From Paenimyroides aestuarii (lineage in GTDB: Bacteria; Bacteroidota; Bacteroidia; Flavobacteriales; Flavobacteriaceae), in NCBI RefSeq assembly GCF_024628805.1, contig NZ_CP102382.1:2852001-2916000 (forward strand): a stretch of 64,000 nucleotides of DNA. Direction: 5' to 3'. Under the pieces are notes generated by a model, which worked only from the letters and a program-made list of their open reading frames with translations, was not told where the DNA came from and searched no databases. The position numbers and the translations under genes were made by a program. Of this stretch, positions 25,220-63,056 are shown one piece after another. Position 1 is the stretch's first letter. Each line of letters begins with the position of its first letter.

Positions 25220-26248
25220 ATGGGATTTTTTGATTTCATGACCGAGGAAATCGCTATGGACCTTGGTACTGCAAATACGTTAATAATACACAACGGAAAA
25301 GTTGTGGTTGACAGTCCTTCGATTGTTGCCCGCGACCGTGTTTCTGGAAAAATAATTGCTGTGGGTAAAGAAGCCAGCTTAATGCAAGGAAAAACCCACG
25401 ACAACATTAAAACTATTCGTCCGTTAAAAGATGGTGTTATTGCAGATTTTGATGCTTCTGAAAAAATGATCAGTTTGTTCATTAAAAGCATTCCCGCATT
25501 AAAAAAACGCTTATTTACACCAGCATTGCGCATGGTGGTTTGTATTCCTTCGGGAATTACAGAGGTGGAAATGCGTGCGGTGAAAGAATCATGCGAACGT
25601 GTGAACGGTAAAGAAGTTTATTTAATACACGAACCAATGGCAGCAGCTATTGGTATTGGGGTGGATATTATGCAGCCCAAAGGAAACATGATTGTTGATA
25701 TTGGTGGTGGTACTACCGAAATTGCCGTTCTGGCATTGGGCGGTATTGTTTGCGACAAATCGGTAAAAATTGCCGGTGATGTGTTTACAAACGACATCAT
25801 TTATTACATGCGTACCCAACACAATCTATTTGTGGGTGAAGGAACAGCAGAAAAAATTAAAATTGAAATTGGCGCAGCTATTGAAGATTTAGACCAAGGA
25901 CCAGAAGATTTAATGGTGCAAGGGCGTGACTTGTTAACAGGGAAACCAAAACAAGTAAATGTATCATATAGAGAAATTGCCAAAGCATTAGACAAATCTA
26001 TTCAGCGTATTGAAGATGCTGTAATGGAAACCTTGTCACAAACACCTCCAGAATTGGCTGCCGATATTTACAATACTGGTATCTATTTAGCAGGTGGTGG
26101 ATCAATGTTAAGAGGTTTGGATAAACGCATCTCTCAAAAAACCGATTTACCCGTTTATATTGCAGAAGATCCTTTACGAGCTGTGGTTCGCGGAACAGGA
26201 ATCGTTATTAAAAACATAGAGAAGTTTAAAAGCATTCTTATAAAATAA
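25220..26248 (+). CDS. mreB: Rod shape-determining protein MreB
   Basis: A 342-residue actin homologue that guides lateral wall synthesis. The phosphate 1 motif is DLGTANTL near the N-terminus, phosphate 2 is VDIGGGTTEIAVL, and the adenosine motif is LAGGGSMLRGL. Normal length. It heads the operon mreB-mreC-mreD-mrdA-rodA with tight spacing or overlaps. Confidence 0.97.
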   Translation: MGFFDFMTEEIAMDLGTANTLIIHNGKVVVDSPSIVARDRVSGKIIAVGKEASLMQGKTHDNIKTIRPLKDGVIADFDASEKMISLFIKSIPALKKRLFTPALRMVVCIPSGITEVEMRAVKESCERVNGKEVYLIHEPMAAAIGIGVDIMQPKGNMIVDIGGGTTEIAVLALGGIVCDKSVKIAGDVFTNDIIYYMRTQHNLFVGEGTAEKIKIEIGAAIEDLDQGPEDLMVQGRDLLTGKPKQVNVSYREIAKALDKSIQRIEDAVMETLSQTPPELAADIYNTGIYLAGGGSMLRGLDKRISQKTDLPVYIAEDPLRAVVRGTGIVIKNIEKFKSILIK

Positions 26249-31510: not shown

Positions 31511-31543
31511 AAAAAAACGACCTGAAATTCAGGTCGTTTTTTT
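31511..31543. terminator. Bidirectional terminator between coiled-coil gene and tRNA-Phe array
   Basis: Stem AAAACGACCTGAA with AGGTCGTTTT and an ATTC loop, with A/T runs on both sides. It can end transcripts from both strands. Confidence 0.85.
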
Positions 31544-31544
31544 G

Positions 31545-31617
<73 letters not shown>

Positions 31618-31640
31618 GAGTAATTAAACTCAATAATTTG

Positions 31641-31713
<73 letters not shown>

Positions 31714-31736
31714 GAGTAATTAAACTCAATAATTTG

Positions 31737-31809
<73 letters not shown>

Positions 31810-31844
31810 GTTTTGCAAGGTGTATTACCTTTCAAAAGCGATTG

Positions 31845-39374: not shown

Positions 39375-39820
39375 TACAAATGGAGTGTTTGTTGTTTCAA
39401 ATAATCGGTGCCCTTGTAAGAAAAATCAATACTAATATCCCAACGGCCATCTATCAAGCGAGATTTAGGTATAAGCAAGTAGTTTGATGACAATTCTATG
39501 GGAATTGTTTGATCAAAAGCTTGATTAGACGGCCTGTAAAGGGATACTGTTCCTTTTATTTCTTGCGGATTGAAATCCTTTGGAAAATAAATTGCTATTC
39601 CTTGTGATGTGGTTTTTATCTGAAAAGCATCAGCCAATTTGTTGGCATTTTGCTGTTTGGAATAATTGCTATTCACCTCGGTTTCTTTTTGGTAATATTG
39701 CTCTGTTACCAATTCATTGTCATAACGTGCGTCCATTTGCACACGAATCACGTATTGCAGTATAAAAATCATAAATGCCGCAATACCAATTACGATGCCT
39801 GTTCCCCAATTAAATTTCAT
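39374..39820 (-). CDS. ccoH: FixH/CcoH family protein
   Basis: A 148-residue protein with one N-terminal membrane helix (about 8-25) and a periplasmic domain with the QYYQKETEVN segment near 41-50 typical of FixH. It is needed for stable assembly of cbb3 oxidase. It sits between ccoG and the SafE-family gene, the usual order. Confidence 0.85.
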   Translation of the reverse strand: MKFNWGTGIVIGIAAFMIFILQYVIRVQMDARYDNELVTEQYYQKETEVNSNYSKQQNANKLADAFQIKTTSQGIAIYFPKDFNPQEIKGTVSLYRPSNQAFDQTIPIELSSNYLLIPKSRLIDGRWDISIDFSYKGTDYLKQQTLHL

Positions 39821-45071: not shown

Positions 45072-46550
45072 TTAACTTTTCAAACTCGCAATAATCGCTC
45101 TAAAACTCTCCAAACCTGCTTCGATGTTTTCTACAATTTCTTCTGCTAATTCATCAGGGTCAGGTAAGTTGTCTAAATCGGCTAGAGATTTGTCTTTCAA
45201 CCACGTTATGTCTAAACTCGTTTTGTCTCTAGCAATGACTTCATCGTAAGAAAATTTACGCCATCTGCCTTCTGGATTGGTTTCTGAATACGTTTCTTTT
45301 CTTTTAGCCGTATTACCATCTAAATACAAATCAAGGAACTCTTGTAAGTCGCTATATTTTAATGGGTTTTTCTTTAAGGTATGATGAATATTGGTTCTGT
45401 AATCGTACACCCAAATCTCTTTTGTCCAAACTTCTTTACTAGCGGGTTTACCATCAAAGAACAATACATTCGCTTTTACACCATTGGCATAGAAAATACC
45501 CGTTGGTAAACGTAAAATGGTATGTAAATTAGTGGTTTCTAATAACTTTTTACGAACCGATTCCCCAGCACCACCTTCAAACAATACATTATCAGGTAAG
45601 ACAACTGCCGCTTTACCATTTTCTTTTAATTGGGTTTTAATGTGTTGTACGAAGTTTAATTGCTTGTTACTGGTAGTAACCCAGAAATCCTGACGGTTAT
45701 AGGTTAAATCGTCTTTTTCTTGTTCGCCTGCTTCGTTGGTAATGGTCATGCTACTTTTTTTACCGAAAGGCGGATTGGCTAAGATATAATCAAAGCGGTC
45801 GCCATTATCGGCTACAAGGGAATCGTTTGGCGAAATAAAATTATCCGAATCAATATCACCTATGTTGTGTAAAAACAAGTTCATTAACGCCAATCGACGC
45901 GTACTAGCCACAATTTCGTTACCTCTGAACGTGTGGTATTTTAAAAACTGCTTTTGCTCTTTGTCTAAGTTTTGCTCGGTTAAATGGTCGTAAGCCGCTA
46001 AAAAGAAACCTCCTGTACCACAAGCAGGATCGCCTATGGTTTTCATAGGTTGCGGATTCAAACACGTGACCATCGCTTTGATTAATGGTCTAGGGGTAAA
46101 GTACTGCCCTGCACCACTTTTGGTATCTTCTGCGTTTTTCTCTAACAAGCCTTCGTAAATGTCGCCTTTGTCTTTTACGCCCATCATGACCCAGTTTTCA
46201 GCATCTATCATTTTGATGAGTTTGAAAAGCTTGGCTGGGTCTTGTATTTTATTTTGACTTTTAGTAAAAATTTGCCCTAAAATACCTTTGCTTTGCCCCA
46301 ACTCACGCAGCATTTTCGTATAATGCACTTCTAATTCTTCTCCGCTTTTGTACAAAAGACTTTCCCAGTTTAAATTGGTTGGAATATTTAAGTTACGATT
46401 ATGCGGTGGCAAACTGTACTCGTGTGCCATTTTTAAAAACAGTAAATACGTTAATTGCTCTAGGTAATCGCCATAACCTACCCCATCATCTCTCAGGGTT
46501 TGACAAAAGGCCCATACTTTGCTTACTATTGTGGAATTTGCGTTGCTCAT
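45072..46550 (-). CDS. hsdM: Type I restriction-modification DNA methyltransferase HsdM
   Basis: A 492-residue N6-adenine methyltransferase. A helical HsdM N-domain (about 5-120) is followed by the SAM motif DPACGTGGF at 174-182 and the catalytic NPPF at 259-262. FRGNEIVASTRRLALMN lies between them. Length is normal and no break is seen. It modifies the site chosen by HsdS and is part of the nuclease complex with HsdR. It is separated from hsdS by about 1.35 kb carrying a transposase and a repeat array, which is unusual. Confidence 0.93.
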   Translation of the reverse strand: MSNANSTIVSKVWAFCQTLRDDGVGYGDYLEQLTYLLFLKMAHEYSLPPHNRNLNIPTNLNWESLLYKSGEELEVHYTKMLRELGQSKGILGQIFTKSQNKIQDPAKLFKLIKMIDAENWVMMGVKDKGDIYEGLLEKNAEDTKSGAGQYFTPRPLIKAMVTCLNPQPMKTIGDPACGTGGFFLAAYDHLTEQNLDKEQKQFLKYHTFRGNEIVASTRRLALMNLFLHNIGDIDSDNFISPNDSLVADNGDRFDYILANPPFGKKSSMTITNEAGEQEKDDLTYNRQDFWVTTSNKQLNFVQHIKTQLKENGKAAVVLPDNVLFEGGAGESVRKKLLETTNLHTILRLPTGIFYANGVKANVLFFDGKPASKEVWTKEIWVYDYRTNIHHTLKKNPLKYSDLQEFLDLYLDGNTAKRKETYSETNPEGRWRKFSYDEVIARDKTSLDITWLKDKSLADLDNLPDPDELAEEIVENIEAGLESFRAIIASLKS

Positions 46551-46586
46551 ATTTGTTTTACATATGATTTTTGTTAAATTTTTAAT

Positions 46587-46619
46587 ATCCGTAAGGGATT
46601 TTTTTCAGGTGCTAACACC
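46587..46619. repeat. REP-like palindromes downstream of transposase
   Basis: ATCCGTAAGGGATTTTTTT at 46587-46605 is a variant of the array unit CATCCCTACGGGAT at 47118-47781. GGTGCTAACACC at 46608-46619 is a perfect 4-bp-armed palindrome. The transposase gene is therefore flanked on both sides by related palindromes. Confidence 0.6.
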
Positions 46620-46630
46620 AATGATTTAGA

Positions 46631-47092
46631 TTATTTTAAATCCTCAAAGATATAACGTTCATCAAATGGGATATTAAATTTTTCTAAAAAATTTAGATAC
46701 TCTTCTTTAAAATTTTCTTTTTTGTGATGTGATTCTTGATTCTTTACGTAGTTATAAACATTGTTAATTTGAGAATGACTATATGAAAATGCACCATATC
46801 CTTCTTGCCATTCAAATCGATTTATTAAAAAACGATTATCATTAATAAACTTTGAAGATTTTGCTTTAACCGTTTTCATTAATTCAGATATAGATACCGT
46901 TGGTTTTAATCCAAAAAAGCAATGCACATGATCTTCAACACCATTAACAATTATGGTTTTGCATCCAGTTTCATTAATAAGATTACCAATAACCGCAAAG
47001 ACATCTTTTCTCCATTCATTATGAAGAACCGCTTCTCTATATTTCACTGCAAAGACTGCCTGAATATAAACTTGATGATAGGTGTTTGCCAT
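46631..47092 (-). CDS. REP-associated tyrosine transposase (IS200-like, Y1 HUH)
   Basis: A 153-residue single-domain protein. The HUH motif is DHVHCFF with His55 and His57. The likely catalytic tyrosine is Tyr115 in YVKNQESHHKK. The C-terminal KEEYLNFLEKFNIPFDERYIF is typical of the small RAYT/IS200 group. These enzymes cut and join single-stranded DNA at hairpins. The gene looks intact and has no IS605-type tnpB partner. Palindromes of one family lie on both sides, which supports the REP-associated class. Confidence 0.88.
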   Translation of the reverse strand: MANTYHQVYIQAVFAVKYREAVLHNEWRKDVFAVIGNLINETGCKTIIVNGVEDHVHCFFGLKPTVSISELMKTVKAKSSKFINDNRFLINRFEWQEGYGAFSYSHSQINNVYNYVKNQESHHKKENFKEEYLNFLEKFNIPFDERYIFEDLK

Positions 47093-47117
47093 ATGTTTGT
47101 TTTATTATTACATGTTT

Positions 47118-47787
47118 CATCCCTACGGGATTTTTTTACATCGGATTGAAATCCATTGTTACAATATGTGTCATCCTTACGGGATTTTTTATCGATATTT
47201 TTTTACAACGGATTGAAATCCATTGTTACAACATGTGTCATCCCTACGGGATTTTTTTACAACGGATTGAAATCCATTGTTAAAATATGTGTCATCCTTA
47301 CGGGATTTTTTATCGATATTTTTTTACAACGGATTGAAATCCATTCCTACAACATGTGTCATCCCTACGGGATTTTTTTACAACGGATTGAAATCCATTG
47401 TTACAATATAGATCATCCCTACGGGATTTTTTATCAACATTTCTTTTGCAACGGATTGAAATCCATTCCTACAACATGTGTCATCCCTACGGGATTTTTT
47501 TACAACGGATTGAAATCCATTGTTACAATATAGATCATCCCTACGGGATTTTTTATCAACATTTCTTTTGCAACGGATTGAAATCCATTCCTACAACATG
47601 TGTCATCCCTACGGGATTTTTTTACAACGGATTGAAATCAATTGTTACAATATAGATCATCCCTAAGGGATTTTATATCGATATTTTTTTACAAATAGAT
47701 CATCCCTACGGGATTTTTTATCAACATTTCTTTTGCAACGGATTGAAATCCATTCTACAACATGTGTCATCCCTACGGGATTTTTTG
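47118..47787. repeat. Alternating palindrome array, 121-122 bp higher-order period
   Basis: Twelve copies of CATCCCTACGGGAT (variants with T or A) begin at 47118, 47172, 47239, 47293, 47360, 47414, 47482, 47536, 47604, 47658, 47701 and 47768. Ten copies of GGATTGAAATCC begin at 47143, 47210, 47264, 47331, 47385, 47453, 47507, 47575, 47629 and 47740. Spacing of the first unit alternates 54 and 67-68 bp until 47604, then breaks down. Each unit can form a hairpin. It lies directly upstream of the transposase gene and contains no real coding sequence. Confidence 0.92.
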
Positions 47788-47795
47788 TGTCGTGT

Positions 47796-47885
47796 TAGAG
47801 CCAGCGGCTCAACCCATTTTATAAGGATGGACTTCAGTCCAGTCGATAACAAACAACCTGACGTATTAGAGCCGTAGGCTCGACC
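47796..47885. repeat. Second set of palindromes next to hsdS
   Basis: GAGCCAGCGGCTC near 47798, GGACTTCAGTCC near 47829 and GAGCCGTAGGCTC near 47869 are three further palindromes. The first and third share the GAGCC/GGCTC arms and are each preceded by TTA. They end about 20 bp before the hsdS stop codon. Confidence 0.65.
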
Positions 47886-47904
47886 TGTTTTGTACAGCTG
47901 CTTT

Positions 47905-49140
47905 TTAAAGCAGTTGCCCACTAAACGCCTTTTTCAATATACTTTGCCTTAACGCTTCTGCTTTTTGTAAACTCTCTTGAATACTTTCCTCCATTTTATC
48001 GGCAACACTTAAACGACTTTCGATTTCTTGAACGATAACGTGTTGTTCTTCTAATGATGGAATAGGAACATCAATATCAAGAATTCTATATAGTGATAAC
48101 TTTGGTTGGGTAGTTATTTTGGTCTTGCTTTTAATTTGTATTTGAGCTTCTATGCTTGATAAAAATAGAGATAAAAACTTATTATAAACTTTATTAAATT
48201 CTGTGATTTTTGCTGCATTTTCAGTCAAATTTGCTCCATCTAATTGTTCAGGAATAGTTCCAACAACGCCTATTGTACCTGCAATTGATATATATACATC
48301 ATTTTTCGAAATCGTGTAATTTTTAATTGCAAATTGTGTTTCAGGATGTAAATACTTTAACTTATATTTATTGACAGTTTGATTGCAAAAATCCGTGACT
48401 CTTATATAAGGATACTGAGTTTGTTCTTCAGAATAAAAATGTCCTTTAGGTAATCTTTTACCTCCTTTAACTTTTGCGAAATCACCAATTTTTAATTTTT
48501 CCCACCCCTCAGGCAACTCACCCTCTTTTACATTTTTATTGGTTAGTTTTCCTTCAAAAGCGTGTTTTAAAACACTTTGGCGGTACACTTTTAATTGTTC
48601 TTGTGCGGTTTTTAAATCGGCTATGCCTTGGTCTAACTCGCTAAAAAGTTCTTCTATTTTGGAAACGATGGCATGTTGGGTTTCAAGTGGGGGAACGGGG
48701 ATTTCAATTTCAGAAAATACTTTTAATGAAATTTCTTTAAATGTAGTACCACTTGCAATACTTTCAGCTTTTTGTTTAGAAGCTTTTAAAAAATAATATA
48801 TATAGTCACTACTTAAATTTTCATTTGGAATTATACTCTTAAATCCTTGATTAGTACATAATTCAGTATCTGCAATTACAACATAACCGATAGGTGCACG
48901 TGAAGAAAATAAAATAGAACCTTTAGGCATTAATTTGGCAGAAGATTTTTTCAAACCTTCTTCTGTTATTGACTTTTTTCCTTTCTTAATTTTCTTTTCA
49001 ACATACCCCGTTAAGTCTGAAGGTGAAATCCAATTTATATCTCCATTCCAATATTCTGAAATACTTGTTGAAGGAGTTCCTCCAGATATAATTTTACCAA
49101 TATCCCTTAACTTTTTTATTTGCCAGTTGTTTTTAACCAT
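47905..49140 (-). CDS. hsdS: Type I restriction specificity subunit HsdS
   Basis: A 411-residue protein with two target-recognition domains (about 1-150 and 215-365). Each is followed by a conserved helix: PPLETQHAIVSKIEELFSEL near 150 and PSLEEQHVIVQEIESRL near 365. A central spacer QEQLKVYRQSVLKHAFEGKL and the matching C-terminal LRQSILKKAFSGQLL show the internal repeat typical of HsdS. The two domains should read the halves of a split DNA site. Intact. It ends 3 bp... or less from palindromic DNA and 2 bp downstream of the toxin gene. Confidence 0.93.
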   Translation of the reverse strand: MVKNNWQIKKLRDIGKIISGGTPSTSISEYWNGDINWISPSDLTGYVEKKIKKGKKSITEEGLKKSSAKLMPKGSILFSSRAPIGYVVIADTELCTNQGFKSIIPNENLSSDYIYYFLKASKQKAESIASGTTFKEISLKVFSEIEIPVPPLETQHAIVSKIEELFSELDQGIADLKTAQEQLKVYRQSVLKHAFEGKLTNKNVKEGELPEGWEKLKIGDFAKVKGGKRLPKGHFYSEEQTQYPYIRVTDFCNQTVNKYKLKYLHPETQFAIKNYTISKNDVYISIAGTIGVVGTIPEQLDGANLTENAAKITEFNKVYNKFLSLFLSSIEAQIQIKSKTKITTQPKLSLYRILDIDVPIPSLEEQHVIVQEIESRLSVADKMEESIQESLQKAEALRQSILKKAFSGQLL

Positions 49141-49142
49141 AT

Positions 49143-49568
49143 TTAAAATTCCATTTTTTCAAATGGTTTATTTGAAGATCCTCTGTAAGCAAAAGGAACA
49201 TTTTCCTTTTTTATTATTTTTTTAATAGACTCCCACTCTCCAATCATTTTCTTTACAAAATCCCAATATTGAAAACCACTCTTTGAAGGTGTTTTTAAGA
49301 AAAATATTCCTACTCCTGCTTGCTGATATAATTCTCTTTGATGTTTAGTATTTTGTATGTTAAAATCTTGTGTGATGACAATCCCTTTTTCCTCACCAAG
49401 TTTAGGAATCCAATCTTCATCAAGTGCACCTTGTCCAAAAACTTCTTTGATAGATAAAACTTCTATTTCAAAACCATCTTTTGCATTTTGAGGTTGTTGC
49501 AATTCGTTTAGCCCTCTAGCTAACTGAGATGGCATATTTTCATCTATGTAAACTTTATATTTCCTCAT
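49143..49568 (-). CDS. DUF5615 PIN-like toxin
   Basis: A 141-residue protein of the Mut7-C/DUF5615 PIN-like nuclease group. The expected acidic residues are visible: Asp9-Glu10-Asn11 at the N-terminus, Asp50/Glu51/Asp52 and Asp68 in VITQDFN. In VapC45-like systems the protein cleaves RNA and is held by a DUF433 antitoxin, encoded here directly upstream with the start and stop overlapping (TAATG). It lies inside a type I restriction operon, 2 bp before hsdS. Confidence 0.8.
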   Translation of the reverse strand: MRKYKVYIDENMPSQLARGLNELQQPQNAKDGFEIEVLSIKEVFGQGALDEDWIPKLGEEKGIVITQDFNIQNTKHQRELYQQAGVGIFFLKTPSKSGFQYWDFVKKMIGEWESIKKIIKKENVPFAYRGSSNKPFEKMEF

Positions 49569-50239
49569 TATGCAGCTTTTTTGTGAAACTCTATCGCATC
49601 TTTAACTGCTTTTTCAGAGACTTCGTAAATAGAAGCTATAAAACGAATTGGTTCTTTAGCTTTATACATTCTGTAAATCGCTTCAGATTGAATGTTTGTA
49701 CCGTAAATTGTTGGTTGTCCAAATTTGTGATGAGGGTCACAAACTACGCTACGTTTCTTTCCAAGTGGCCAAAATCTTGAAGCTAAATTATCTTTTCCAA
49801 AATCAAGATTATGGAAAAACATTGAAATTAAATCTAAGTTTAATTGTTTAGTTCCATCTAATGAAATGGTATCTCCATTTTGCTTTAAATAAACTTTTAG
49901 TTTATCTGTTTTAATATTTCTTAAAACTTCTTCTTTTGCAAATGGAAAATTTGTTTTATACATATCCGAAAGTTCTTTATGCGCTTTTAAAACTTCTTTT
50001 GTTTTAACTCCCGCTTCTGCAAACTGCATCATTACATAAAACTCAATTAATGTATGAAATCCCACAGCCTTTGTGTTTTCAATAGACCAAGAGTAATTCT
50101 TTTCGTAAAATTTCCCTAATTCTCCATCCCAATATTTGGTTATCCAAGTTCTTACTTTACTGTAAGGTAATTGAAGAATTTGAGCAATTTCTTGCGTAGT
50201 AAATATTCCGTTTCCTATTTCTAATTTATTTTCGAACAT
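49568..50239 (-). CDS. DUF433 family antitoxin (VapB45-like)
   Basis: A 223-residue protein. An N-terminal MerR-like helix-turn-helix (IFTTQEIAQILQLPYSKVRTW, about 13-33) is followed by a helical middle and a C-terminal DUF433 domain (about 165-215) with GTNIQSEAIYRM, FIASIYEVSEKAVKDAIEFH. DUF433 proteins pair with DUF5615 toxins. Its start is 34 bp downstream of the hsdR stop, so the pair may be expressed from the hsdR promoter or from its own. Confidence 0.8.
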   Translation of the reverse strand: MFENKLEIGNGIFTTQEIAQILQLPYSKVRTWITKYWDGELGKFYEKNYSWSIENTKAVGFHTLIEFYVMMQFAEAGVKTKEVLKAHKELSDMYKTNFPFAKEEVLRNIKTDKLKVYLKQNGDTISLDGTKQLNLDLISMFFHNLDFGKDNLASRFWPLGKKRSVVCDPHHKFGQPTIYGTNIQSEAIYRMYKAKEPIRFIASIYEVSEKAVKDAIEFHKKAA

Positions 50240-50273
50240 TGTAGGTTTTAAAGTTTTTACAAAAATACAAATT

Positions 50274-53102
50274 TTAAGCCGCTAATACTTCGTTTAATTC
50301 TTCTATAATTTCCATATACTGGTTACCAAACAACTGGTAAAACTTACCTAAACCACCGTATGCGTTAAACGGGTTCAGTTCAAAATCTTCGGTGTCTAAA
50401 TGAAAGGAGTTGGCAATATAGTCTTTAATCATGCGCAACCATTGCATTTGCTCTTCGGTAAAGGTATTGTGTTGCCCTGCATTTTTCTTAAATATCCACT
50501 CTTGAAAGTTTCTATCTACCGTTTTGTCATAGGCCGTTAAATACTCGTCTATTTGTAAGGCTTTACGAATCACAGAAACCAACAGTACCAAATCTTGTTT
50601 GGGTTTCTCAGTTCTATTTTTGTTCTTGTTATTGCCATTGTTCTTGTCATTGATTTGGTTGTCTTCCAATTCCGCATAAGCATCCCAAAGTTTAGGTGCG
50701 TTCAAGGTAGGTTGTTCCAAAACCAATTTCTCATACAAATCGCGTATCATTTTATAGGTCAATTCCCTTCTTCGGTACGGTTCACCATAAAAGATTTGCA
50801 AGGCTAAGGCTTCGTCTTGGTTATTGGCTACCCAAGTTTCAAAAGCGGTTACGATGCTTTGCGCTTGCTCGGTAACGTCTTTTACCCAACCCATATTGGT
50901 TACTTCGTCTATATTGAGGGTATCAATTATTTGGTCGTATTTTTTGCGTACGTCTATAATGTAATTGCGTAAATCAGGATTATGCAACACCGCAACGGCT
51001 TGTTCTATAATAGCACGGTGCTCCGTTTCAATGGCTTGTTCTATAACGGCTGGCGCTTGTCCTTTTAAATCATTCTGAATTCTAAATTCTAAATTCTGAA
51101 TTACATCTGGGTCGTACGCTTGCAATAACTTTTGTACCACTTGCTTAATCTCTAAACCATTGGCTAACTCGGCAAATTTTTCTTTTTCTTTCGGGTTAAT
51201 TTGGCGGTCTAAACGAATCAAACGATTGGCTAAAGTCGTTAACATTTCTTCCGAGCGGTTGCCCATGGCAATATTTCCCAACACATCTTTTAACGCCACA
51301 CCAGGGGCTTTTTCTAAAGGTCGGCTATCGGTTTTTTGTGATTTTTCAACTCCAATGGCATCAATAATCACAAAATGGTCTTTGTTGTATTTTGCAGTTG
51401 GCGTTCCTGTTTTGCGTAATTCTTCTAACGTACAAGTTCGCGTACCACGACCTTTCATTTGTTCGTAGTAACTTTTACTCTTCACATCACGCATAAACAA
51501 CAATACTTCCAGCGGTCTGATGTCGGTTCCTGTTGCAATCATATCTACCGTAACCGCTACACGAGGATAGTATTCGTTTCGAAACTGACTCAAAATGCTT
51601 TTGGGGTCTTCGGTAGATTGATAGGTAATCTTTTTACAAAACTTATTTTCTTCGCCAAATTCCTCTCGAACAATGTCAATAATATCTTCGGCATGACTGT
51701 CGCTTTTGGCAAAAATTAGCATTTTGGGTACTTCGAAATTGCCATGTTCGTCAAAACGGTCGGGAAACATATTCGGCAAATTATCACGAACGGCTTTAAC
51801 AATACTTCGAATGGTACTAGGATTCACAATGTCTTTATCCAATTGTTTGCTCGAGTAACTAATATCTTCATCTACGGTTTCCCAAAACTTTTTACGGGTT
51901 AAGCGTTCGCGTTTGTCTACTTGCTCGCCTACACCAATAGCAGCACCTTCTTTGGATATTTTAGTTTCAATAGTAAATACATTATACGGCACCAAAACAC
52001 CATCTACCACCGCTTTTTCATAGCCATAATCCGATACTACATTCTGATTGAAATACATAAACGTACGGTTATCAGGCGTAGCGGTTAAGCCCACTTGAAA
52101 CGCATCAAAGTAATCCAACACTTGTCGCCACAAATTGTAAATACTGCGGTGACATTCGTCAATTACGATGAAATCGAAAAACTCAATCGGTATTTTTTCA
52201 TTGTACACTACTGGCACAGGCTCTTTACTAGGTACAAACTCATACGGATTCAATTCTTCGGCACTTTCTTCTAATTCCGTACCTTTTAAAATCGAATACA
52301 TACGCTGAATCGTACTAATATACACCTGATTATCTTGTGGAATGAAACTGCTTTTTAATCGAGTTACAGGATATAATTCGGTAAACTTACTGTTAGAATC
52401 ATTCGGTAAATACGCCATGAATTCTTGTTCGGCTTGTTCCCCTAAGTTTTTGGTATCCACTAAAAACAGAACACGTTTTGCCTTAGCAAATTTCAGTAAG
52501 CGATAAATAAAGGTAATCGCAGTAAAGGTTTTCCCTGAACCTGTTGCCATTTGTACTAATGACTTCGGCTTGAAATCCTTAAATGATTTTTCAAGATTGG
52601 TAATCGTATCAATTTGACAATCACGCAAACGGTCAGTAGGCAATTCAGGAATATCCAATAAACCAGTTCTTAGACTTTTTTCATTTTTCAACCACAATCC
52701 TAAAGTTTCAGGTCGGTGAAACGTAAATACTTCTCTAGCTCTCGGTTTTGGATCTTTGTAATTGGTAAACTTAGTAATGTCGCCCGTACTGATATAAACG
52801 AATGGTAAAGGTTGATTATCTAAATATTTGAGTTTGGCATTCGCATAATCTTCTCCCTGCTCCTCCACCATCGACAACGATTGCCCTAATTCAGAACGTT
52901 TGGCTTCAATAACTCCAACAGGAATTTGATTTACAAATAAGACATAATCAGCTGGACCAACATTAGTCTGATACTCACGTACCGCAACACCAATAGTAGC
53001 CGCTAAATTAATTTGCGACTTATTTTGTATCACCCAACCGCAAGCAATTAACTGCTTGTCTATTTCATCACGAGCTATTTGTTCTGGGTTTTGATTATGC
53101 AT
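50274..53102 (-). CDS. hsdR: Type I restriction enzyme subunit HsdR
   Basis: A 942-residue motor nuclease. The PD-(D/E)xK endonuclease site is Asp52 (GPADYVLF) with Glu66-Ala-Lys68. Walker A ATGSGKT is at 186-192 and DECH at 315-318. Motif VI lies near KGRGTRTC, about 545. The C-terminal helical domain binds the methylase core. It cuts unmodified DNA after translocation. It is the first gene of the locus. Codons near residues 667-677 are made of four tandem heptamers (51073-51100). Confidence 0.95.
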   Translation of the reverse strand: MHNQNPEQIARDEIDKQLIACGWVIQNKSQINLAATIGVAVREYQTNVGPADYVLFVNQIPVGVIEAKRSELGQSLSMVEEQGEDYANAKLKYLDNQPLPFVYISTGDITKFTNYKDPKPRAREVFTFHRPETLGLWLKNEKSLRTGLLDIPELPTDRLRDCQIDTITNLEKSFKDFKPKSLVQMATGSGKTFTAITFIYRLLKFAKAKRVLFLVDTKNLGEQAEQEFMAYLPNDSNSKFTELYPVTRLKSSFIPQDNQVYISTIQRMYSILKGTELEESAEELNPYEFVPSKEPVPVVYNEKIPIEFFDFIVIDECHRSIYNLWRQVLDYFDAFQVGLTATPDNRTFMYFNQNVVSDYGYEKAVVDGVLVPYNVFTIETKISKEGAAIGVGEQVDKRERLTRKKFWETVDEDISYSSKQLDKDIVNPSTIRSIVKAVRDNLPNMFPDRFDEHGNFEVPKMLIFAKSDSHAEDIIDIVREEFGEENKFCKKITYQSTEDPKSILSQFRNEYYPRVAVTVDMIATGTDIRPLEVLLFMRDVKSKSYYEQMKGRGTRTCTLEELRKTGTPTAKYNKDHFVIIDAIGVEKSQKTDSRPLEKAPGVALKDVLGNIAMGNRSEEMLTTLANRLIRLDRQINPKEKEKFAELANGLEIKQVVQKLLQAYDPDVIQNLEFRIQNDLKGQAPAVIEQAIETEHRAIIEQAVAVLHNPDLRNYIIDVRKKYDQIIDTLNIDEVTNMGWVKDVTEQAQSIVTAFETWVANNQDEALALQIFYGEPYRRRELTYKMIRDLYEKLVLEQPTLNAPKLWDAYAELEDNQINDKNNGNNKNKNRTEKPKQDLVLLVSVIRKALQIDEYLTAYDKTVDRNFQEWIFKKNAGQHNTFTEEQMQWLRMIKDYIANSFHLDTEDFELNPFNAYGGLGKFYQLFGNQYMEIIEELNEVLAA
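51073..51100 (-). repeat. Four tandem heptamers inside hsdR
   Basis: TTCTGAA, TTCTAAA, TTCTAAA, TTCTGAA follow without gaps (plus-strand reading). They encode the segment IQNLEFRIQN in the linker before the HsdR C-terminal domain. Seven is not a multiple of three, so gain or loss of one unit would shift the frame. Confidence 0.8.
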
Positions 53103-62734: not shown

Positions 62735-62766
62735 AAAAACTCCTAAATTGCTTTAGGAGTTTTTTT
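62735..62766. terminator. Bidirectional terminator between phosphatidyltransferase gene and tRNA-Thr array
   Basis: Perfect stem AAAAACTCCTAAA with TTTAGGAGTTTTT and a TTGC loop. Confidence 0.88.
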
Positions 62767-62768
62767 AG

Positions 62769-62842
62769 AGCCTCTGGAGGGACTCGAACCCACGACCTGC
62801 TGATTACAAATCAGCTGCTCTAGCCAGCTGAGCTACAGAGGC
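62769..62842 (-). tRNA. tRNA-Thr (TGT), last in transcript order
   Basis: A 74-nt cloverleaf with acceptor stem GCCTCTG/CAGAGGC, D arm AGCTCAGCTGGCTAGAGC, anticodon stem GCTGA/TCAGC around TTTGTAA with anticodon TGT, and T arm GTGGGTTCGAGTCCC. CCA is not encoded. Confidence 0.97.
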
Positions 62843-62876
62843 AAAATGTAAATTAGTACTTTTATTGAAAATTTAG

Positions 62877-62950
62877 AGCCTCTAGAGGGACTCGAACCCA
62901 CGACCTGCTGATTACAAATCAGCTGCTCTAGCCAGCTGAGCTACAGAGGC
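62877..62950 (-). tRNA. tRNA-Thr (TGT), middle copy with one change
   Basis: The same as its neighbours apart from one base: the 3' acceptor strand reads TAGAGGC instead of CAGAGGC. This turns the seventh acceptor pair from G-C to G-U, which should still fold. Confidence 0.96.
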
Positions 62951-62982
62951 AAAATAATATTTTCAATTGTTAAAAGAACTTG

Positions 62983-63056
62983 AGCCTCTGGAGGGACTCG
63001 AACCCACGACCTGCTGATTACAAATCAGCTGCTCTAGCCAGCTGAGCTACAGAGGC
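62983..63056 (-). tRNA. tRNA-Thr (TGT), promoter-proximal copy
   Basis: Identical to the copy at 62769-62842. It is 16 bp downstream of a full Bacteroidota promoter. The spacers between the three copies (34 and 32 bp) are not identical, unlike those of the tRNA-Phe array. Confidence 0.97.

Follow-up and report, generated by a model that had tools for sequence, protein, structure and literature searches.

The array of alternating palindromes at positions 47,118 to 47,787 of the window (the whole stretch of 64,000 nucleotides of Paenimyroides aestuarii DNA that was analyzed) is, with a probability of about 0.85 as judged by sequence comparison, a cluster, amplified in tandem, of a REP with two hairpins that belongs to the neighboring tnpA gene, i.e., a REPtron of the RAYT type. 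This appearance results from the concentration of the units beside tnpA, the conservation of their stems, the co-occurrence of units and TnpA, and the subclass 1.2 motifs of the protein. The unit thus looks like a new type of REP for a class of TnpA that was thought to be REP-less.

Organization of the array and its surroundings

A search of the window in which mismatches were allowed bore out the 12 copies of one palindrome (A, CATCCCTACGGGAT) and the 10 copies of another (B, GGATTGAAATCC) that the initial annotation had described as alternating. Palindrome A was present in nine exact and three one-mismatch copies, all of them within 47118–47781 and in one orientation, and none was found on the opposite strand of the window with up to two mismatches allowed. 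Inside the array, B was present in nine exact copies and one with a single mismatch; elsewhere in the window, it occurred exactly at 39567 and with one mismatch at 52567. The genome is a single contig of 2.96 Mb, in which the nine exact copies of A all lie in the array, as do nine of the ten exact copies of B, the other being that at 39567, which reached 11 bits with R1, the covariance model of the unit described below.

The distances between successive copies of A given earlier (54, 67, 54, 67, 54, 68, 54, 68, 54, 43 and 67) were reproduced exactly, and TRF reported a period of 122 with 4.8 copies, 95% matches and a score of 998, which was exceeded by four segments in three loci. Dimers 3 and 4 are identical (122/122), dimers 1 and 2 show four differences over 121 positions, and dimers 1/2 match dimers 3/4 at 111–113 of 122 positions, the fifth dimer being shortened to 97 bp. 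The dimer of about 121 bp, regarded in the initial annotation as the true unit, is therefore real, but it is not the primary one. The distance from B to A is constant (17 nt, and 16 once), and only that from A to B alternates (11 and 24/25; in one case, in which B has been lost, the next A follows at 29). A single A+B repeat is therefore the primary unit, and two such repeats with different spacers make up the 121/122-bp dimer. On the minus strand, A-17-B units follow one another head to tail, separated by spacers of two lengths.

The primary unit, which is read on the minus strand in the window, is composed of hairpin A (13 nt, with a 5-bp stem and a 3-nt loop), a 14-nt linker (GAnnnATnTTGTA[GA]) that features AT.T and GTA[GA], and hairpin B (~20 nt, with an 8-bp stem and a 4-nt loop). 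The view that the two palindromes are unrelated had to be abandoned, given that A–B pairs near tnpA peak sharply at 17 nt, and the array, initially described as not a simple REP cluster, is a REP cluster, of an unlisted type of REP. We agree that it is not a CRISPR array, as the spacers are repeated among themselves. A scan of six proteins, TnpA included, for cas genes near the array gave one Cas-labeled match among the best 25 of each protein, namely that of a DinG helicase profile to HsdR (E 4.4e-7), which was read as a helicase cross-match.

The repeat locus reaches 47916, where two further units lie in inverted orientation (Table 1). On the far side of tnpA, the possible degenerate copy of A may be due to chance, since matches with an equal number of mismatches occur at 25545, 28498 and 40041.

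Table 1. Features of the repeat locus and of the adjoining genes, with scores (in bits) for the covariance model R1
Feature	Positions	Strand	Remarks
hsdM, type I methyltransferase	45072..46550	-	PF02384, PF12161
Possible degenerate hairpin A, far side of tnpA (weak)	46588..46598	.	Two mismatches to 11-base A core
tnpA, 153-aa Y1 HUH transposase-like	46631..47092	-	DHVH, WQ, YVKNQESHH; PF01797 E 1.6e-26; NF033573
Solo hairpin A beside tnpA start, without B	47102..47133	-	R1 23.2 bits
Composite REP unit 1 (A-linker-B)	47138..47187	-	R1 48.9 bits
Composite REP unit 2	47205..47254	-	R1 65.5 bits
Composite REP unit 3	47259..47308	-	R1 52.8 bits
Composite REP unit 4	47326..47375	-	R1 59.8 bits
Composite REP unit 5	47380..47429	-	R1 67.4 bits; folds as A+B hairpins, z -3.57
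Composite REP unit 6	47448..47497	-	R1 58.6 bits
Composite REP unit 7	47502..47551	-	R1 67.4 bits
Composite REP unit 8	47570..47619	-	R1 58.6 bits
Composite REP unit 9	47624..47673	-	R1 55.1 bits
Unit minus hairpin B	47688..47716	-	R1 23.5 bits; by sequence
Composite REP unit 10, linker one base shorter	47735..47783	-	R1 50.5 bits
Second REP subtype, inverted	47796..47845	+	R1 50.7 bits; inverted pair with unit 10, 12-nt gap
Second REP subtype, inverted	47867..47916	+	R1 42.7 bits; shares 12 bases with the end of hsdS
hsdS, type I specificity subunit	47905..49140	-	PF01420
hsdR, type I restriction subunit	50274..53102	-	PF04851, PF08463, PF04313

The array and tnpA lie inside a type I restriction operon (45072–53102) that comprises hsdR, genes for a DUF433 protein and a PIN protein, hsdS and hsdM; at locus L038, tnpA sits between hsdR and hsdS instead. 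With regard to the remainder of the window, the region 19068–19740 matches no more than ~248 nt of the 3' end of 23S rRNA, with a 5S gene beside them and a palindromic stretch (CGCGGATTTGCAATCCGTGCG) after them, and looks like a truncated rRNA operon. Three tandem tRNA-Phe genes with a 96-bp period (31541–31810), three tandem tRNA-Thr genes with a period of ~108 bp (62764–63056) and a match to Flavo-1 RNA (RF01705; 5930–6028) were also observed. At the array, no Rfam family was found above the gathering threshold.

Conservation of the unit and its association with TnpA

The neighboring gene encodes an intact Y1 HUH protein, with both the HUH and the Tyr motifs present, whose PDB relatives by sequence include the ISHp608 TnpA (2a6m, E 4.9e-6). 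Compared with three relatives, tnpA showed a dN/dS of 0.05–0.07, at dS values of 1.0–1.6 that are near saturation. We collected 80 TnpA relatives (66–88% identical, the best 80 of 388), nearly all labeled Bacteroidetes or lower taxa thereof and one labeled Lentisphaeria, which together with the window gave 81 close loci. The motif Y---Q--HH was present in 81/81 close loci, in 27/30 loci of mid relatives (44–57% identity) and in 10/10 loci of far relatives (33–39%); WQ was found in 80 and DH[VI]H in 78 of the 81 close loci. The class 2 signature Y---NP was absent from all 81 close, 30 mid and 10 far loci. By its motifs alone, TnpA would belong to Y1 subclass 1.2. Three other TnpA-like genes of the same genome are at most 48% identical to the array-side TnpA, and each of them (loci L011, L012 and L013) has local palindromes of a different sequence.

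Hairpins were tenfold denser near tnpA, with 741 in 92,047 bp at up to 600 bp, compared with 341 in 410,757 bp at 1.5–4.5 kb. When both stems were required to have at least 5 bp and A and B to be 16–18 nt apart, we counted 202 units in the 152,030 bp that lie up to 1 kb from tnpA, belonging to 73 of the 81 loci, and two in 416,757 bp at 1.5–4.5 kb, the remaining eight loci having no unit at that spacing. These values support the link between the array and the intact neighboring TnpA that had been put forward initially. When all A–B spacings of 8–40 nt up to 1 kb from tnpA were tallied, the peak was at 17 (182 pairs); a second, broad group at 24–31 nt is what one would obtain by reading a cluster in the opposite direction, from B to its next A. 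With a laxer rule for the window, the count within 1.5 kb gave 192 pairs at 17 nt among 214 at 16–18 nt. With spacings of 12–26 nt allowed, 249 units were found near versus three far (74/81 loci), some of these pairs being formed with the wrong A, and five dinucleotide shuffles yielded 0–1 units each. Similarly, the linker motif ATNTTGTA occurred 351 times near tnpA and 117 times far from it, and 205 and five times, respectively, when both hairpins had to be at least 4/5 paired.

Units near tnpA were found in both orientations. In the relatives, the A with an AT.T tail that lies closest to tnpA points toward it from either side, being on the plus strand in 51/61 cases upstream and on the minus strand in 46/53 cases downstream; in 20 (upstream) and 28 (downstream) of the 81 loci, such an A was lacking or the sequence was too short. 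The GTA[GA] box of the composite units carries G in 57% of cases, and the window holds both GTAG and GTAA. A 5-bp stem combined with GTAA in place of GTAG would presumably escape a search with GT[AG]G.

Both stems covary well beyond shuffled controls, in sets of units selected independently of the stem under test. With A scored on units picked by the motif plus B, and B on units picked by the motif plus A, 948 of 1165 cells were paired in the A stem (2000 shuffles: mean 612, maximum 669) and 1363 of 1648 in the B stem (2000 shuffles: mean 931, maximum 995). In an alignment of 83 units, which had been selected for pairing, 98.4% of the cells were paired, compared with at most 48% when the partners were slid. 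Wobbles in the B stem were asymmetric between strands, with 142 G.T versus 22 A.C (44 versus 6 by loci), and 127 of the 142 G.T lie at the three outer pairs; in the A stem this bias was slight (13 G.T versus 6 A.C). Because of the excess of G.T over A.C in B, the strand that is constrained to fold is probably that which reads A-linker-B. The unit that folds as drawn (unit 5) had a z of −1.83 on the opposite strand, as against that of the A-linker-B strand given in Table 1, and an inverted unit gave −2.79.

Beyond the close relatives, hairpins were also enriched within 600 bp of the mid and far TnpA relatives (4.17 and 4.92 per kb, respectively, versus 0.34 and 0.50 per kb beyond 0.9 kb), and these hairpins beside 40 more distant relatives have other shapes. 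In 43 loci (three from the own genome, 30 mid and 10 far), R1 gave one strong match and 17 weak ones (16–24 bits), and a composite REP common to all of subclass 1.2 was rejected.

In the own genome, R1 found 13 units, 13/13 at the array locus. Neither an exact search for A and B nor R1 (150 of 1447 candidates scored) revealed dispersed REP copies elsewhere in that genome, a point in which the unit differs from a classical REP. Among 199 genomes of the genus, 77 had units and 92 a TnpA match. The 30 genomes whose TnpA was identical at 66% or more all had at least four units, compared with 21 of the other 169, 47 of which had at least one (Fisher p 3e-22, uncorrected for kinship); as ~30 candidates were scored per genome, high unit counts are lower bounds. 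Three genomes had many units despite having no close full-length TnpA, namely G107 (28), G182 (45; broken TnpA at 35%) and G074 (33; full-length TnpA at 44%). TnpA identity tracked stem identity across 72 loci (Mantel r 0.33, 0/2000 permutations), with kinship as a confounder; kinship inflates such association tests. A survey of the phylum, in which 20 candidates were scored for each genome, gave one or more matches at E ≤0.001, many of them weak, in 63/296 genomes and 23/139 genera.

Dispersal was evident in relatives: by hand count, 52 of 83 units in four hand-chosen one-contig genomes with TnpA lay away from the close tnpA (G010, 4/20; G179, 4/8; G111, 5/10; G095, 39/45). Among 86 units from G095, G111, G179 and G182 (the last without a close TnpA), adjacent pairs were minus-plus in 26 cases, plus-minus in none and same-strand in two; rows below ~39 bits in these four genomes, as well as G010, G107 and G074, were left out of this count.

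Turnover of units, growth of arrays and alternative explanations

Units at two dispersed sites are lineage-specific. An ortholog search over 59 genomes gave some match in 34 (site 1) and 51 (site 2), and in the 19 orthologous loci fetched for each site the unit was present in 0/19 and 1/19, respectively. At site 1, nine of the 19 junctions were empty, with the two genes abutting or overlapping; two others held different DNA (38 and 72 bp), one held 5 bp, and seven had no clear junction. The insert at this site (in G138) carries another repeat besides the REP, and its ends differ from those of the REP, so that an exact REP-sized insertion is ruled out. Since the genes overlap as TAATGA in relatives, an overlap of 6–7 bp at the junction is not evidence of a target duplication. 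The other repeat (TAGTGTTCAGTAATCAG..., L173 331–366) matches many places in several relatives. The one positive locus for site 2 (G010) has a tandem array of its own, with four units and a period of 49, ~2.3 Mb from its tnpA.

Tandem amplification, of which the 121-bp dimer is an instance, is common beside these tnpA genes. Tandem repeats with a period of at least 40 were detected within 1.5 kb of tnpA at 39 of the 81 loci (46/162 segments, 224,356 bp), compared with 4/144 segments (416,757 bp) in the same search farther away, and those with at least 2.8 copies at 29 loci near versus one far; periods beside tnpA ranged from 41 to 331. In G138 (L177 1–2020), eight inverted REP pairs upstream of tnpA recur every ~262 bp, and the 3' end of hsdS (its final ~30 codons) is included in at least five of the repeats. 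Locus L024 (4665–4754, 5679–5772) shows a 94-bp copy of the start of hsdM, 86% identical, on the far side of a REP-tnpA-REP block, which resembles a large flanking duplication; L104 is the same DNA.

How, then, would the system work? By analogy with the E. coli TnpA-REP in vitro (PMC8266576), the single-copy TnpA may bind the folded single strand of the unit and would cut and join it, possibly with the AT.T of the linker as the exchange point. In relatives, the unit is scattered along the chromosome, often in inverted pairs; here it would have stayed at home, with one REP subtype multiplied as dimers. Amplification by the enzyme and by slippage had both been suggested at the outset, and both are kept as possible; slippage or unequal exchange is the likelier and probably accounts for most of the growth. 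The marks that resemble slippage are the identical dimers 3 and 4, the 262-bp unit of G138 with its hsdS-end DNA, and the loss of one B, where the break lies at the TTACAA repeats flanking B, one base off an exact repeat-to-repeat deletion.

A more tentative possibility is that TnpA itself grows the array, in which case the unit would join two ends, A-GAnnCATAT and TGTA[GA]-B, and repeated insertion of a mini-element of the form B-spacer-A at the AT.T of a resident copy would lead to head-to-tail arrays. The tandem repeats beside tnpA at 39/81 loci, with their many different periods, would agree with this, as would the remnants of units: copies of A without B keep AT.T (0.95, 0.95 and 0.89) and lose the following TGTA (0.65, then 0.38), and copies of B without A keep AT.TTGTA. 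However, the loss of the partner hairpin is given by construction and the sets include decayed composites, so that the fate of the linker alone is informative and AT.T as the exchange point is only a hint. Furthermore, the window array's own variation is slippage-like, and hsdS DNA in the repeated unit of G138 is unexpected for a precise mini-element. Runs of at least three same-strand units within 300 bp were seen in 3/5 TnpA genomes versus 0/11 without a close full-length TnpA (Fisher p 0.018), which is in favor of growth by TnpA, with the reservation that all 16 genomes were chosen by hand. These 11 genomes include G074 and G182, the other nine having no TnpA match; positions were tabulated for the five TnpA genomes and the richer contigs of G107, G182 and G074, and the other contigs of these three and eight further genomes were judged by eye. 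The initial annotation held that dimer arrays in transposase-less genomes would tell against its proposal; this check was run in part, and along with 0/11 above, runs were found in G422 and G493, two genomes from the phylum list that lie outside the comparison of TnpA presence. A bolder version, which we consider doubtful, takes the unit for a ready-made joint of two ends with AT.T as the exchange point and with A and B as both hairpins of a TnpA dimer, such that TnpA would insert mini-elements into its own array as part of an overlooked Bacteroidota class of REP/RAYT. As every resident copy would end in the enzyme's own target, arrays would grow head to tail.

With respect to the nature of the unit itself, it is unlikely that the hairpins are kept as transcription terminators or RNA stabilizers between hsdS and hsdM with the transposase as a bystander. 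The position inside a restriction operon and the 15 terminator-like sites at 46400–48100 (0.8 in shuffles) would suit such a role; however, 11 of these sites run counter to the operon, on the plus strand, and four are on the minus strand, units near tnpA occur in both orientations, and when units of both orientations are pooled, the G.T bias goes with the A-linker-B strand. Hsd neighbors were moreover found at 8 of 149 loci searched by tblastn (7/137 after 12 duplicate genomes were dropped), and an hsd-specific function was rejected on these counts. Even less probable is that the locus represents a normal IS200/IS605 insertion sequence, together with its ends and the MITEs derived from it. IS200/IS605 elements have hairpin ends, and a Y1 HUH protein, hairpins on both sides and dispersed short copies in relatives are what this explanation leads one to expect; the Y---Q--HH signature and the low dN/dS weigh against it. 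The several near-identical copies per genome are missing too: as the next-best TnpA is 48% identical, the own genome lacks a second copy of the element. The REPtron is the reading that we retain.

Comparison with known systems

Relative to IS200/IS605 elements (IS608, ISDra2), which likewise have hairpin ends (PMC8266576), the enzyme is related by sequence (2a6m), but the genome contains a single copy of the element and the two REP subtypes are inverted to each other. Closer similarities exist with the REP/BIME and TnpA-REP (RAYT; subclasses 2.2 and 2.5) of E. coli and Pseudomonas, as portrayed in PMC8266576 and PMC6006769, namely a low-copy Y1 HUH gene with flanking palindromes, the occurrence of REPs in more than one subtype, in inverted pairs and in tandem clusters, a hairpin foot with a GTA[GA] box, and co-variation of TnpA and REP. 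In contrast to those REPs, the unit described here has two hairpins at a fixed distance, and GTAA is nearly as common as GTAG; unlike TnpA-REP, the protein has Y---Q--HH and not Y---NP, the host belongs to the Bacteroidota and the unit is undispersed in its own genome. According to PMC8266576, TnpA-REP processes REP and not iREP, and REP/iREP pairs are usual and often in tandem. PMC3733652, which deals with tandem clusters of GTAG repeats and names Bacteroidetes among the phyla with CGTC repeats, already describes REP dimers that are repeated in tandem together with flanking DNA. The dimer array represents a good example of a common behavior of this REP/TnpA system.

The protein resembles the TnpA-Y1 subclass 1.2 of PMC6006769 in DH[IV]H, WQ and Y---Q--HH, a length of ~150 aa, its occurrence in Bacteroidetes, low copy number and the presence of divergent copies in one genome. 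Table 1 of that article lists this subclass as 'no' for REP, and its members are described there as generally devoid of terminal IS200 structures and as not sharing IS properties. At variance with this listing, composite units flank tnpA in 73/81 close loci, and hairpins are enriched beside the 40 more distant relatives. Among the papers and abstract openings listed from the open-licence literature, outside of which most subscription papers lie, we found no report of REPs for this TnpA class; a search with the sequences of six of the palindromes was also empty, and Bacteroidetes terms were not found in PMC2817692.

Taken together, the system is a real and well conserved one of the REP/RAYT type, whose unit is new and whose enzyme class is unexpected. 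A subclass listed in PMC6006769 as lacking REPs appears to have cognate repeats, with dozens per genome in some species, and the unit would supply a candidate substrate for the subclass 1.2 protein. The natural tandem arrays allow direct tests of how REPs multiply, in a REP system that stands on the IS200 side (class 1) and can be compared with those of class 2.
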